From Desulfogranum japonicum DSM 18378 (lineage in GTDB: Bacteria; Desulfobacterota; Desulfobulbia; Desulfobulbales; Desulfobulbaceae): a stretch of DNA of 64,000 bases. Positions 1,795 through 4,407 of the stretch are shown here, piece after piece. The notes beneath the pieces were generated by a model, which saw nothing but the letters and a program-made list of their open reading frames with translations, made no database searches and was not told where the DNA came from. How positions within the stretch are numbered: the first letter of the stretch is position 1; every line of letters starts with the position of its first letter. The DNA lies in NCBI RefSeq assembly GCF_000429945.1, contig NZ_AUCV01000005.1, positions 62,001 through 126,000 of the forward strand, in the 5' to 3' direction. Position numbers and translations under genes: made by a program.

Positions 1795-1797
1795 ATG
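1771..1797 (+). promoter_or_regulatory. typA Shine-Dalgarno inside a possible hairpin
   Basis: GGAGGTGA at 1781-1788 is a near-perfect Shine-Dalgarno, 6 bases before ATG 1795. It is immediately preceded by CCTCC repeats (1772-1776 and 1776-1780). CCUCC at 1772-1776 can pair with GGAGG at 1781-1785 around a 4-base loop and hide the site. Pairing is seen in sequence; a regulatory effect is inference. Confidence 0.4.
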
Positions 1798-3594
1798 CAG
1801 CAAGAAAATATTCGTAATGTCGCTATAATTGCCCATGTTGATCACGGTAAAACCACTCTGGTGGATCAGCTTTTTCGTCACAGCGGTATGTTCCGCGAAA
1901 ATCAGGATGTGGCTGAACGCCTGATGGACTCCATGGATCTTGAGCGGGAACGCGGTATCACCATTGCCTCTAAAAACGGATCATACATCTACAAAGACTA
2001 TAAAATTAATATTATTGATACCCCCGGCCATGCTGATTTTGGAGGTCAGGTTGAACGGGTGTTGCGTATGGCCGATGGAGCTGTCTTGTTAGTCGATGCT
2101 CAGGAAGGTCCCATGCCTCAGACTTTTTTTGTGGTTAAAAAGGCATTGGCCGTGGGATTGCCTCTGTTGGTAGTGGTCAATAAGATTGATAAACCCGCGG
2201 CTCGCTGTGACTGGGTTGTAGATCAGGTGTTTGGCATGTTGGATCGACTGGAAGCACCCGATGAGATTTTGGATTTTCCCGTGGTATATGCATCTGCCAA
2301 GGCAGGGTTTGCCATTGAAGATCCGGAGGCGGAAGTGGTTCCTGGAACAGGGATGGATCTGATTTCGCAAATGATCGTAGACCATGTACCACCACCTTCC
2401 GGAGACCCAGAAGCTTCGTTGCAGCTGCAGGTTAACACCATCGATTATTCCCCGTACATGGGGCGTCTGGGAATAGGTAAGATTGTAAACGGACGTCTTG
2501 ATCTACGTTCCAACCTGGTTGTATCACGCCGTGATGGTTCACTTGAACCTGTTCGAATCAACAAAATATTTAGCTTTGAAGGTGACCAAAAAGTACCTGT
2601 GGACAAGGCCTCTGCCGGGGACATTATTGCCGTGGCAGGTATGGAAGATGTTACTGTGGGAGTCACTTTTACCAATCCCGAGGATCCACAACCTTTGCCG
2701 TTGATTGAGATTGACCCGCCAACCATTTCCATGAATTTCATACCAAATGATTCTCCGTTTGCCGGCTTGGATGGAAAATATGTAACCTCCAGGCATCTTG
2801 AAGATCGACTTGGCAGAGAAACCCTTGCTGATGTGGCTCTCCAGGTTGAACCATTGCAGGATGCGGTGGGGTACCGTGTTGCAGGCCGTGGTGAATTGCA
2901 CCTTTCCATCCTCATTGAAAAAATGAGGCGAGAAGGCTATGAGTTTCAGGTCACCAGACCCCACGTTATCATGCGGGAGGAAAACGGAAAGACTCTGGAA
3001 CCCTACGAAGAATTGACTGTTGATGTGGATGAGCAGTATCAGGGAATCGTCATCGAAAAGTTGGGCAAGCTTAAAGGCGTGCTGCTGGATATGCAGGTAA
3101 ATAACCAGATGAGCCGTATGATCTTCAAAGTGCCTACACGTGGACTTTTAGGATATCGTTCCCAGTTCCTCACCGATACCAGGGGAATGGGTGTCATGAG
3201 TTATGTGTTTGCAGAATGGGGGCCCTACGCAGGGGATATACAGAATCGTATCAACGGTGTTATGATTGTGAAAGAACCCGCAACCACTGTGGCTTATGCT
3301 CTGTTTAACCTGCAGGACCGTGGCCATTTGTTTGTTGGTCCCGGTGTAGATACGTATCAGGGGCAGATCATAGGTGAGCATTGTCGTCCGGCAGATCTCA
3401 TTGTTAACCCTGCGAAAGGGAAAAAACTCACCAATGTGCGTGCTGCCGGTTCAGATGATGCGGTAATTCTCACTCCCCCAGTTGACATGAGCCTGGAAGA
3501 CTGCATATCATATATTAACGATGACGAACTGGTAGAGATTACCCCTAAAGCAATTCGTCTCCGTAAGCAGAAGGGAGCGAAAATTCGAGGATAA
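1795..3594 (+). CDS. typA: Ribosome-associated GTPase TypA/BipA
   Basis: A 599-residue translational GTPase of the EF-G/LepA superfamily that acts at the ribosome in assembly and stress or cold adaptation. G1 AHVDHGKTT lies at about residue 14, then switch II/G3 DTPGHADFGG and G4 NKID. The C-terminal half has EF-G III/V-like domains and the TypA-specific tail with GLLGYRSQFLTDTRG and NVRAAGSDDA. Length matches the family (about 600). The start is fixed by the strong GGAGGTGA site. The gene stands alone on the plus strand; the small selenoprotein candidate follows 118 bp later. Confidence 0.96.
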   Translation: MQQENIRNVAIIAHVDHGKTTLVDQLFRHSGMFRENQDVAERLMDSMDLERERGITIASKNGSYIYKDYKINIIDTPGHADFGGQVERVLRMADGAVLLVDAQEGPMPQTFFVVKKALAVGLPLLVVVNKIDKPAARCDWVVDQVFGMLDRLEAPDEILDFPVVYASAKAGFAIEDPEAEVVPGTGMDLISQMIVDHVPPPSGDPEASLQLQVNTIDYSPYMGRLGIGKIVNGRLDLRSNLVVSRRDGSLEPVRINKIFSFEGDQKVPVDKASAGDIIAVAGMEDVTVGVTFTNPEDPQPLPLIEIDPPTISMNFIPNDSPFAGLDGKYVTSRHLEDRLGRETLADVALQVEPLQDAVGYRVAGRGELHLSILIEKMRREGYEFQVTRPHVIMREENGKTLEPYEELTVDVDEQYQGIVIEKLGKLKGVLLDMQVNNQMSRMIFKVPTRGLLGYRSQFLTDTRGMGVMSYVFAEWGPYAGDIQNRINGVMIVKEPATTVAYALFNLQDRGHLFVGPGVDTYQGQIIGEHCRPADLIVNPAKGKKLTNVRAAGSDDAVILTPPVDMSLEDCISYINDDELVEITPKAIRLRKQKGAKIRG

Positions 3595-3712
3595 CTGTAG
3601 ACTGAAAAGATAACAGGTTTTCTGCTGTCGTTCCCTGAAATATTGTATGTTAACAGGTGCGTTATCCAGTAAGCGGTGAGTGAGTGCCTGTGTGGGAGAT
3701 TCAGGAGGGGCA

Positions 3713-3874
3713 ATGAAGGAACTTGTTATTTTGTTGATAGCTACTGTCGCAGGCCTGACCACGTTTACCATCGCCCTGCGAAAATATGGAAGTGACTGTA
3801 TCCCCTGACTATTGATGTACAGCTCCATAGGTGTGGGGCTTGCTACCTTTTTTGTGCTTCGGGCTCTTTTCTAG
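3713..3874 (+). CDS. Candidate 53-aa membrane selenoprotein, in-frame TGA
   Basis: ATG 3713 follows a strong AGGAGGGG site (3703-3710). It opens with a hydrophobic helix (residues 3-22), then the loop RKYGSDCIP, then TGA at 3806-3808. Read through, the frame continues for 21 codons as a second hydrophobic segment (LLMYSSIG to FVLRALF) and stops at TAG 3872-3874. If TGA is selenocysteine, the loop carries C29-x-x-U32, the classic thiol/selenol redox motif, at a membrane surface. A bSECIS-like hairpin begins 13 bases after TGA. The alternative is a 31-residue peptide ending at TGA, but that leaves the second membrane segment and the hairpin unexplained. I do not recognise the family. The Sec reading is inference from three agreeing signals. 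Confidence 0.65.
3821..3840 (+). promoter_or_regulatory. bSECIS-like hairpin after in-frame TGA
   Basis: AGCTCCAT (3821-3828) pairs over 8 bp (two G.U) with GTGGGGCT (3833-3840) around the tetraloop AGGT (3829-3832). The loop's first G is 22 bases after the TGA. Bacterial SECIS elements are known to need a small apical loop with a G in its first two positions, roughly 16-37 bases past UGA; this fits, and AGGU also occurs in the E. coli fdhF loop. An outer GTA/TAC pairing (3817-3819 with 3844-3846) may extend the stem. Confidence 0.6.
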
Positions 3875-3899
3875 GAATCTGTCGGAGAAAGCTCTTGTT

Positions 3900-3931
3900 C
3901 CCCATAGCTTAGGGCTGCCTATGCTATGGGG
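3900..3931. terminator. Hairpin between converging genes
   Basis: CCCCATAGC (3900-3908) and GCTATGGGG (3923-3931) form a perfect 9-bp stem with a 14-base loop between the selenoprotein candidate (plus) and the NUDIX gene (minus). No clear T-run follows on either strand, so it is a weak or bidirectional terminator candidate. Confidence 0.45.
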
Positions 3932-3963
3932 ATATATATCCGGCTGATCGTGAGCAATCCAGG

Positions 3964-4407
3964 TCATATGGCCGGACGTTTTCCTGTTTTCTTGAAGCGA
4001 AAGTAATCACTCAGAATCTGCTTGTGATCAAATACCAAGTCGGGCAGATTGTCTTCCTGAAAGATACGCGCCTCGGCAGCATCATCTGCACCAACAGGTT
4101 TACCCTCTGCCTGGCCGATAAAGACAGTTGAGGTGTTGTGTTGCCGTTCATCCCTTTCCGGATTGGAATAGGTATGAAACTGTGTTGACAATGTCACCTG
4201 CAGGCCGGTTTCCTCTTCAGCTTCCCGGCGGGCAGCATTCTCATAGGATTCGCCGTAGTCAACAAAACCACCTGGCAATGCCCAGCCCAGGGGTGGATTT
4301 TTTCGTTCAATGAGTACAATACCTCCATTGATTTCTATGATGATATCAACAGTGGGTACAGGGTTTCTGTATACTGTTATTTCAGCTCCACAGGATGAAC
4401 ATTGCAT
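3964..4407 (-). CDS. NUDIX hydrolase
   Basis: 147 residues with a full Nudix box ([20 protein letters not shown] followed by ETGL), the metal-binding helix that cleaves nucleoside diphosphates linked to another group. The N-terminus has one CxxC pair (MQCSSCG), a partial zinc-ribbon feel seen in ADP-ribose/NADH pyrophosphatase-like members. Substrate cannot be predicted. It is the last gene of the minus-strand run that starts at glgX, 50 bp after the HAD gene; the start is supported by AAGG upstream. Confidence 0.88.

Follow-up and report, generated by a model that had tools for sequence, protein, structure and literature searches.

UGA codon 32 of a 53-residue, probably membrane-bound protein of Desulfogranum japonicum almost certainly encodes selenocysteine

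The window, that is, the whole stretch of 64,000 nucleotides of Desulfogranum japonicum DNA analysed here, contains a short reading frame which is interrupted by a TGA codon. The question raised by this locus is whether the TGA ends a small peptide or is read as selenocysteine (Sec, U) within a longer protein. A preliminary description of the window had favoured the latter and listed a strong Shine-Dalgarno sequence, 31 codons ending in D-C-I-P, the TGA, 21 further in-frame codons and a TAG, all of which are borne out by the sequence and its translation. The gene and its parts are as follows:

3703..3708, + strand: Shine-Dalgarno sequence AGGAGG, 4 nt before the ATG, read directly from the sequence
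3713..3874, + strand: gene of the very probable 53-residue selenoprotein (residues 1-31, U32, residues 33-53, stop TAG), from sequence, translation and homologues
3806..3808, + strand: TGA, almost certainly read as selenocysteine (U32); a single in-frame TGA is found in the best match of 210 out of the 212 matching genomes of the order
3797..3808, + strand: putative redox motif C-I-P-U, residues 29-32; C at -3 in 119 and P at -1 in 110 out of 120 distinct sequences
3722..3778, + strand: predicted membrane helix 1, residues 4-22; Kyte-Doolittle mean 2.42
3806..3871, + strand: predicted membrane helix 2, residues 32-53, with Y36, G40 and G42; Kyte-Doolittle mean 1.79; Y at +4 and G at +10 in 120/120, G at +8 in 117/120 sequences
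3821..3840, + strand: bSECIS-like hairpin of 8 bp with an AGGU loop at 3829-3832, from its fold, conservation and covariation

The frame opens with ATG at 3713, has TGA as codon 32 and closes with TAG at 3872-3874, and the protein reads MKELVILLIATVAGLTTFTIALRKYGSDCIPULLMYSSIGVGLATFFVLRALF. The genome search showed one convincing copy of the gene in D. japonicum. Judged from sequence comparison, the 53-residue protein is next to certain to be a selenoprotein.

The distribution of the gene was examined at the level of family, order and phylum. In the window's family, a match was obtained in 58 out of 73 genomes, and every one of these matches contains exactly one in-frame TGA. A profile of 42 members found a homologue in 212 of the 257 genomes of the order, and in 210 of these a single in-frame TGA is the only stop codon within the best match. 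The two exceptions are G218, which has Cys and no stop, and G194, which has an additional TAA. The remaining 45 genomes gave no match in the profile search; many genomes of this set are incomplete. Twelve homologous loci of another collection belong to Desulfobulbaceae, Desulfobulbus or Deltaproteobacteria, and at least some of them are the same contigs as in the family set. In a phylum sample of 395 genomes, only G295 matched convincingly outside the order. Searching around G295 revealed the gene in 48 of the 199 genomes of a second order, 47 of them with one TGA; one member (G816) matches Salidesulfovibrio of the Desulfovibrionales. Most of the genomes sampled in one bacterial order, and a part of those in a second, thus carry the gene, and the proposed conservation of the TGA and of the 21 codons behind it, with coding sequence conserved on both sides, holds in 210/212 and 47/48 genomes, respectively.

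Other weak matches of the phylum sample (G609, G323, G584 and G423) are taken as chance, as their translations are without the architecture of the family. The one in G609 is antisense to what by eye is a cluster of flagellar-type genes, and was rejected. A further weak match, in G424, has an E value of 0.009 and contains a TAA. A plasmid search gave no match.

Several loci of the family deviate from the common form. In L167 (G256) the TGA is kept and Gly replaces the Cys (GRPU). L221 (G818) has two in-frame TGA codons and a change of Tyr to Cys, and is either decayed or doubly Sec. Genome G160 carries three copies of the gene, two of which (L164 and L165) have one and the same ORF of 730 residues in their vicinity, by its appearance a mobile or repeated gene. 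In G252 there are two divergent copies (L161 and L162), each before an mtnA-like gene.

The protein itself is strongly conserved around the TGA. The motif C-x-[PAST]-U-x3-Y-x3-[GA]-x-G is found in 119/120 distinct fetched sequences and, in addition to the residues counted above, Y or F occupies position +14 in all 120. These sequences come from fetched loci and are a subset of the 212 + 48 genomes; L168 (extra TAA) and L136 (contig edge), neither with a usable start, and the duplicate contexts L094, L122 and L207 were excluded. Length is nearly constant, with 21-22 residues after U in 112/120 sequences and 31 before U in 100/120, the start codons having been picked nearest to the 31-residue length. 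At 14 of the 18 codons after the UGA, the third position is the most variable one.

A true stop at the TGA would leave a one-helix peptide of 31 to 42 residues, with the likeness downstream being accidental or part of another element. The standard-code annotation does end there, and a 42-aa frame ending in DCIP is listed. On the contrary, protein-level conservation of the downstream codons, in an unchanged frame and at near-constant length, extends over 210 + 47 genomes from the two orders, the interrupting codon is a single TGA at the same place and not TAA or TAG, and the Cys orthologues read straight through. A true stop is scarcely credible in the face of this pattern.

The alternation of TGA with a Cys codon, suggested beforehand as a check on the selenocysteine reading, is seen in two species, G217 and G218, which belong to a single genus outside the window's family but within the order. 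Only these two Cys homologues at the Sec position were found, both with TGC:

G218, locus L159, 3087-3245: Cys form of the gene, motif GCPAC
G217, locus L229, about 1501-1641: Cys form of the gene, motif GCPMC

Both Cys forms sit between a DUF47 gene and mtnA, as does the Sec-form locus L169 of G216. The comF-like, PiT, DUF47 and mtnA genes (names given partly by eye) are common to G218 and L169, and the alternation is syntenic. The Tyr that corresponds to Y36 and the G-x-G are lost in both Cys forms, so that their function may not be kept or may be drifting. Both genomes retain tRNA-Sec.

The D. japonicum genome has genes of the machinery for selenocysteine insertion. Matches above the cut-off were obtained for three of the four genes named in the preliminary description, namely selC (tRNA-Sec, 75 bits), selB (SelB, 359.6 bits) and selA (SelA, 611.7 bits). 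Across the order, tRNA-Sec is present in 186/212 genomes with the gene and in 25/45 without it (Fisher p 3e-6; counts made by hand, G217 being scored as gene-less although its Cys form is present). Restricted to genomes with a completeness of 90% or more, the association is weak (p 0.023), and 10 of the 13 gene-less ones among them still have tRNA-Sec (both again counted by hand). The five genomes of genus g11 have neither tRNA-Sec nor a convincing match to the gene.

The hairpin behind the TGA is formed by positions 3821-3828 with 3833-3840 (eight pairs), the loop AGGT being at 3829-3832. With the first base after the TGA counted as 1, the stem begins at base 13 and the G of the loop is base 22. 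According to the bSECIS rule as worded in the text of PMC13188914, a G is expected in the first two loop positions and the loop at 16-37 nt after the UGA; the window hairpin, with G at +22 and 8 bp, conforms to it, and the geometry proposed earlier stands unchanged. Its energy in the window is unremarkable (z -1.0; 27/200 dinucleotide shuffles fold at least as well). The weight of the hairpin lies in its conservation and covariation among relatives.

These were assessed with 105 one-TGA sequences from 107 loci, which gave 102 distinct regions, one of them from the second order (G295, L160); the Cys form L159 and a chance match, L163, were left out. At least seven of the eight pairs are formed in 73/102 regions, against 24% (maximum 32%, 200 rounds) under a null of random synonymous recoding with the codon usage of the neighboring genes. 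Compared with the same recoding, the minimum free energy is only moderately low (median z -1.09; 54/102 below -1). With the U of the UGA counted as position 0, pair 17:32 consists of two third codon bases, one from codon +5 (Gly, Ser or Ala) and the other from codon +10 (Gly). It is Watson-Crick in 70/102 regions against 46 in shuffles, none of 5000 being as high, with the composition C-G 52, A-T 11 and T-A 6. Pair 20:29, which likewise links two third codon bases, is Watson-Crick in 82/102 against 72.5 in shuffles, again with 0/5000 as high. The covariation at both pairs also holds among 47 representatives of <75% identity, where 17:32 pairs in 32/47 against 19.6 in shuffles. The outer pairs are uninformative because they hardly vary. 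In addition, the Ile codon that supplies the A of the loop is ATA in 36/40 cases, a codon used for 276 of the 2555 Ile residues (11%) in neighboring genes. Such third-base effects, both the covariation and the preference for ATA, are hard to account for by protein constraint, and the hairpin looks to be selected as RNA.

Conservation of the hairpin with compensatory third-base changes is thus a property of most relatives and not of all: 29/102 regions form fewer than seven pairs, and several of these have another hairpin a few bases downstream. In L135, L139, L142, L145 and others the hairpin is shifted downstream, with a stem of the type GGUAUG/CAUAUC. In these loci the SECIS appears to have moved within the coding sequence, and the shifted hairpins are assumed to serve as SECIS.

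Near-cognate tRNAs can in general read through UGA, and the codon could in principle be decoded by an ordinary tRNA (e.g., that of Trp) or by another mechanism without Sec. This is hard to believe here: the replacement at the site is Cys (G217 and G218), the near-invariant neighboring Cys makes a CxxU, a covarying hairpin lies at SECIS distance, and the gene co-occurs with tRNA-Sec. Insertion of selenocysteine at UGA 32 is inferred from the conservation, the covariation and the presence of the Sec genes together; the ribosome would read the codon by means of tRNA-Sec, SelB and the hairpin just behind.

The neighborhood of the gene in the window is the following:

1795..3594, + strand: typA/bipA, directly upstream (Pfam GTP_EFTU and BipA_C)
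3899..3932, + strand: strong hairpin after the gene, between convergent genes (-25.1 kcal/mol, z -3.74)
3964..4407, - strand: NUDIX hydrolase gene, convergent neighbor (Pfam NUDIX, E 5e-22)

Neither a promoter nor a T-run terminator was found near the gene, the hairpin at 3899-3932 being without a T run; this hairpin, between the selenoprotein and NUDIX genes, is possibly the transcript end.

The location after typA, given in the preliminary description, applies to the window and to many relatives; in other lineages the gene lies before mtnA or elsewhere. Neighbors were counted by tblastn in 103 distinct fetched loci of the order, the window and one Cys form included. Directly upstream and on the same strand, typA is found in 65 of the 99 loci with room, and mtnA is directly downstream in 28 of 97. 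One or the other is adjacent in 89/93 loci with room on both sides; the median gap to typA is 42 nt (measured from alignment ends). MtnA was named from its Pfam IF-2B domain and, by eye, from its sequence. In the second order, typA or mtnA is adjacent in 0/20 distinct loci; a MazG-like gene (named by eye) occurs in 9/20 fetched loci, mostly just downstream and on the opposite strand. No partner gene is common to both orders when the typA, mtnA and second-order contexts are compared. It seems that the gene forms a small unit by itself, and no neighbor common to all contexts gives away its role.

The close same-strand linkage to typA or mtnA in 89/93 loci would also suit a selenium-sensing leader, in which UGA and hairpin act on the neighbor and the peptide is unimportant in itself. 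However, the gene comes after typA but before mtnA, so there is no common logic, neither gene is adjacent in the 20 loci of the second order, and amino acids are strongly conserved on both sides of U. A leader is very improbable.

Locus L212 contains a short hydrophobic ORF 256 nt upstream of the selenoprotein gene, ending ...VPYLLVVVIGTLFAVYYILNVLF..., which resembles the selenoprotein without its Cys and Sec. Its cluster is found in 2/20 loci, and it is possibly a partner or paralogue.

As to topology, the two helices assumed at the outset agree with two hydrophobic stretches (mean hydropathy 2.44 and 1.53) and a charged linker (-1.12; 114 sequences), whereas AlphaFold2, with 13 sequences, gave a poor model (pLDDT 69.5, pTM 0.38) of one continuous helix. 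K/R per residue amount to 0.22 in the 11 residues before U, 0.11 in the first five and 0.12 in the last seven (122-123 sequences; these means and those of hydropathy include duplicates). By the positive-inside rule this excess, a modest difference, places the C-x-P-U end in the cytoplasm.

A small inner-membrane selenoprotein with two helices and selenol-thiol redox chemistry is the best explanation of the locus and a very probable one, and the redox function at the membrane is nearly as probable. A short linker rich in K/R would connect the two membrane helices of the chain. Helix 2 would carry C29 and U32 at its end next to the linker, where they could form a selenenylsulfide, and the motif C-x-P-U would face the cytoplasm. 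Most likely the protein would act as a selenol/thiol electron carrier at the membrane surface, in which U32 attacks a partner or passes electrons to it and C29 is the resolving residue. Y36, invariant and one helical turn after U32, and the packing motif G40-x-G42 suggest helices that may pack into an oligomer with a pocket by the Se-S pair. Quinone or a lipid peroxide as the partner is a guess; coupling to quinone, suggested by analogy with DsbB/VKOR, is rather unlikely.

Small membrane proteins are often subunits of larger complexes. In the manner of CydX-like peptides, the protein could serve a larger membrane complex as a structural partner or small subunit dependent on Sec, and its Cys/Sec pair would then be used for assembly or metal binding and not for catalysis. 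Its tiny size, the helix-packing GxG and the soft Cys/Sec pair are in line with this. On the other hand, the typA, mtnA and second-order contexts share no partner gene (a partner could be encoded elsewhere), and P and Y are conserved in the vicinity of CxxU, as suits a redox site. Such a role is considered unlikely compared with that of a membrane redox protein.

The claim that no described family matches holds for NCBIfam, Pfam and the list of PMC13188914. The window protein gave no family match in NCBIfam (best E 0.15). Pfam was searched with 42 members, which touched 14 families at E up to 1 (best E 0.012), none of them convincing; PrgI, touched by 11/42 members with the best E of 0.012, is taken as a chance match between hydrophobic helices. 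A PDB sequence search with the profile matched no chain. Table 1 of the 2026 review PMC13188914 lists 119 selenoprotein families, none of which, going by its name, motif or model, corresponds to a CxPU protein with two helices, the entries given only as cd or PTHR models being compared by name and motif alone. No published description was found in the openly accessible literature searched, including text of PMC13188914, PMC12013277, PMC9312934, PMC1914089 and PMC8318568.

A selenoprotein carried by most sampled genomes of an order therefore seems absent from the inventories checked. One likely reason is that standard gene callers end at UGA. Another is the filter of deep-Sep, which, as outlined in PMC12013277, retains candidates with a known Sec homologue or with Cys homologues among the top hits; the family was likely missed because it nearly lacks Cys homologues. 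In the results given there, Desulfolithobacter dissulfuricans GF1 has 22 known and 0 new selenoproteins, and Salidesulfovibrio onnuriiensis IOR2 has 10 known and 0 new. The two are apparently G051 and G816 of this work, both carriers of the gene. This indicates that very small proteins of families in which nearly all members have Sec may generally be overlooked. The family may also point to selenol chemistry at the membrane of anaerobes.

Among small hydrophobic proteins with Cys residues, the FeoB-associated Cys-rich membrane protein (PF12669) was touched by 2/42 members, with a best E of 0.077 and no real match. The bacterial CxxU selenoproteins (e.g., SelW-like, GrdA and the CC/Se motif family NF041239) are alike in having a UGA with a hairpin just downstream and a Cys two residues apart from the Sec, with Sec second (motifs from PMC13188914). 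In contrast to them, the family presented here has 53 residues and two predicted membrane helices, and the search for Cys homologues gave only two. The deep-Sep families, hypothetical protein DG (NF049953) among them, are likewise new and hypothetical selenoproteins and come from relatives within the class (PMC12013277), but the motif of DG is GUxG and not CxPU, and NF049953 does not match the window protein.

A further comparison is with DsbB and VKOR, in which, according to the text of PMC4555120, a CxxC lies in a two-helix AB module and the second Cys contacts quinone. By analogy, the protein might be a minimal selenium-containing oxidoreductase for quinone (or for a membrane peroxide), in which several 53-residue helix pairs, each equivalent to the AB module, would surround a quinone as a homo-oligomer and connect the cytosolic thiols of sulfur-cycling anaerobes with their menaquinone pool. 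This proposal is unlikely as it stands; if true, the protein would rank among the smallest selenoproteins and its family would use selenocysteine almost exclusively. The DsbB and VKOR Pfam families are absent among the 14 touched by the 42 members at E up to 1, and the likeness is an argument about how the protein may work, as no sequence relation was found. DsbB and VKOR have four helices against the one pair predicted here, and the charge bias here suggests a cytoplasmic site. By hydropathy a chain has at most two helices (the AlphaFold2 model being poor), and an oligomer could make four. In clades 1 and 5 of prokaryotic VKOR, the residue Tyr139 of the human enzyme is not conserved (PMC4555120). 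Human VKOR, with Cys132-x-x-Cys135 and Tyr139, has the same spacing as C29-x-x-U32 and Y36 of the protein from D. japonicum (PMC4555120).
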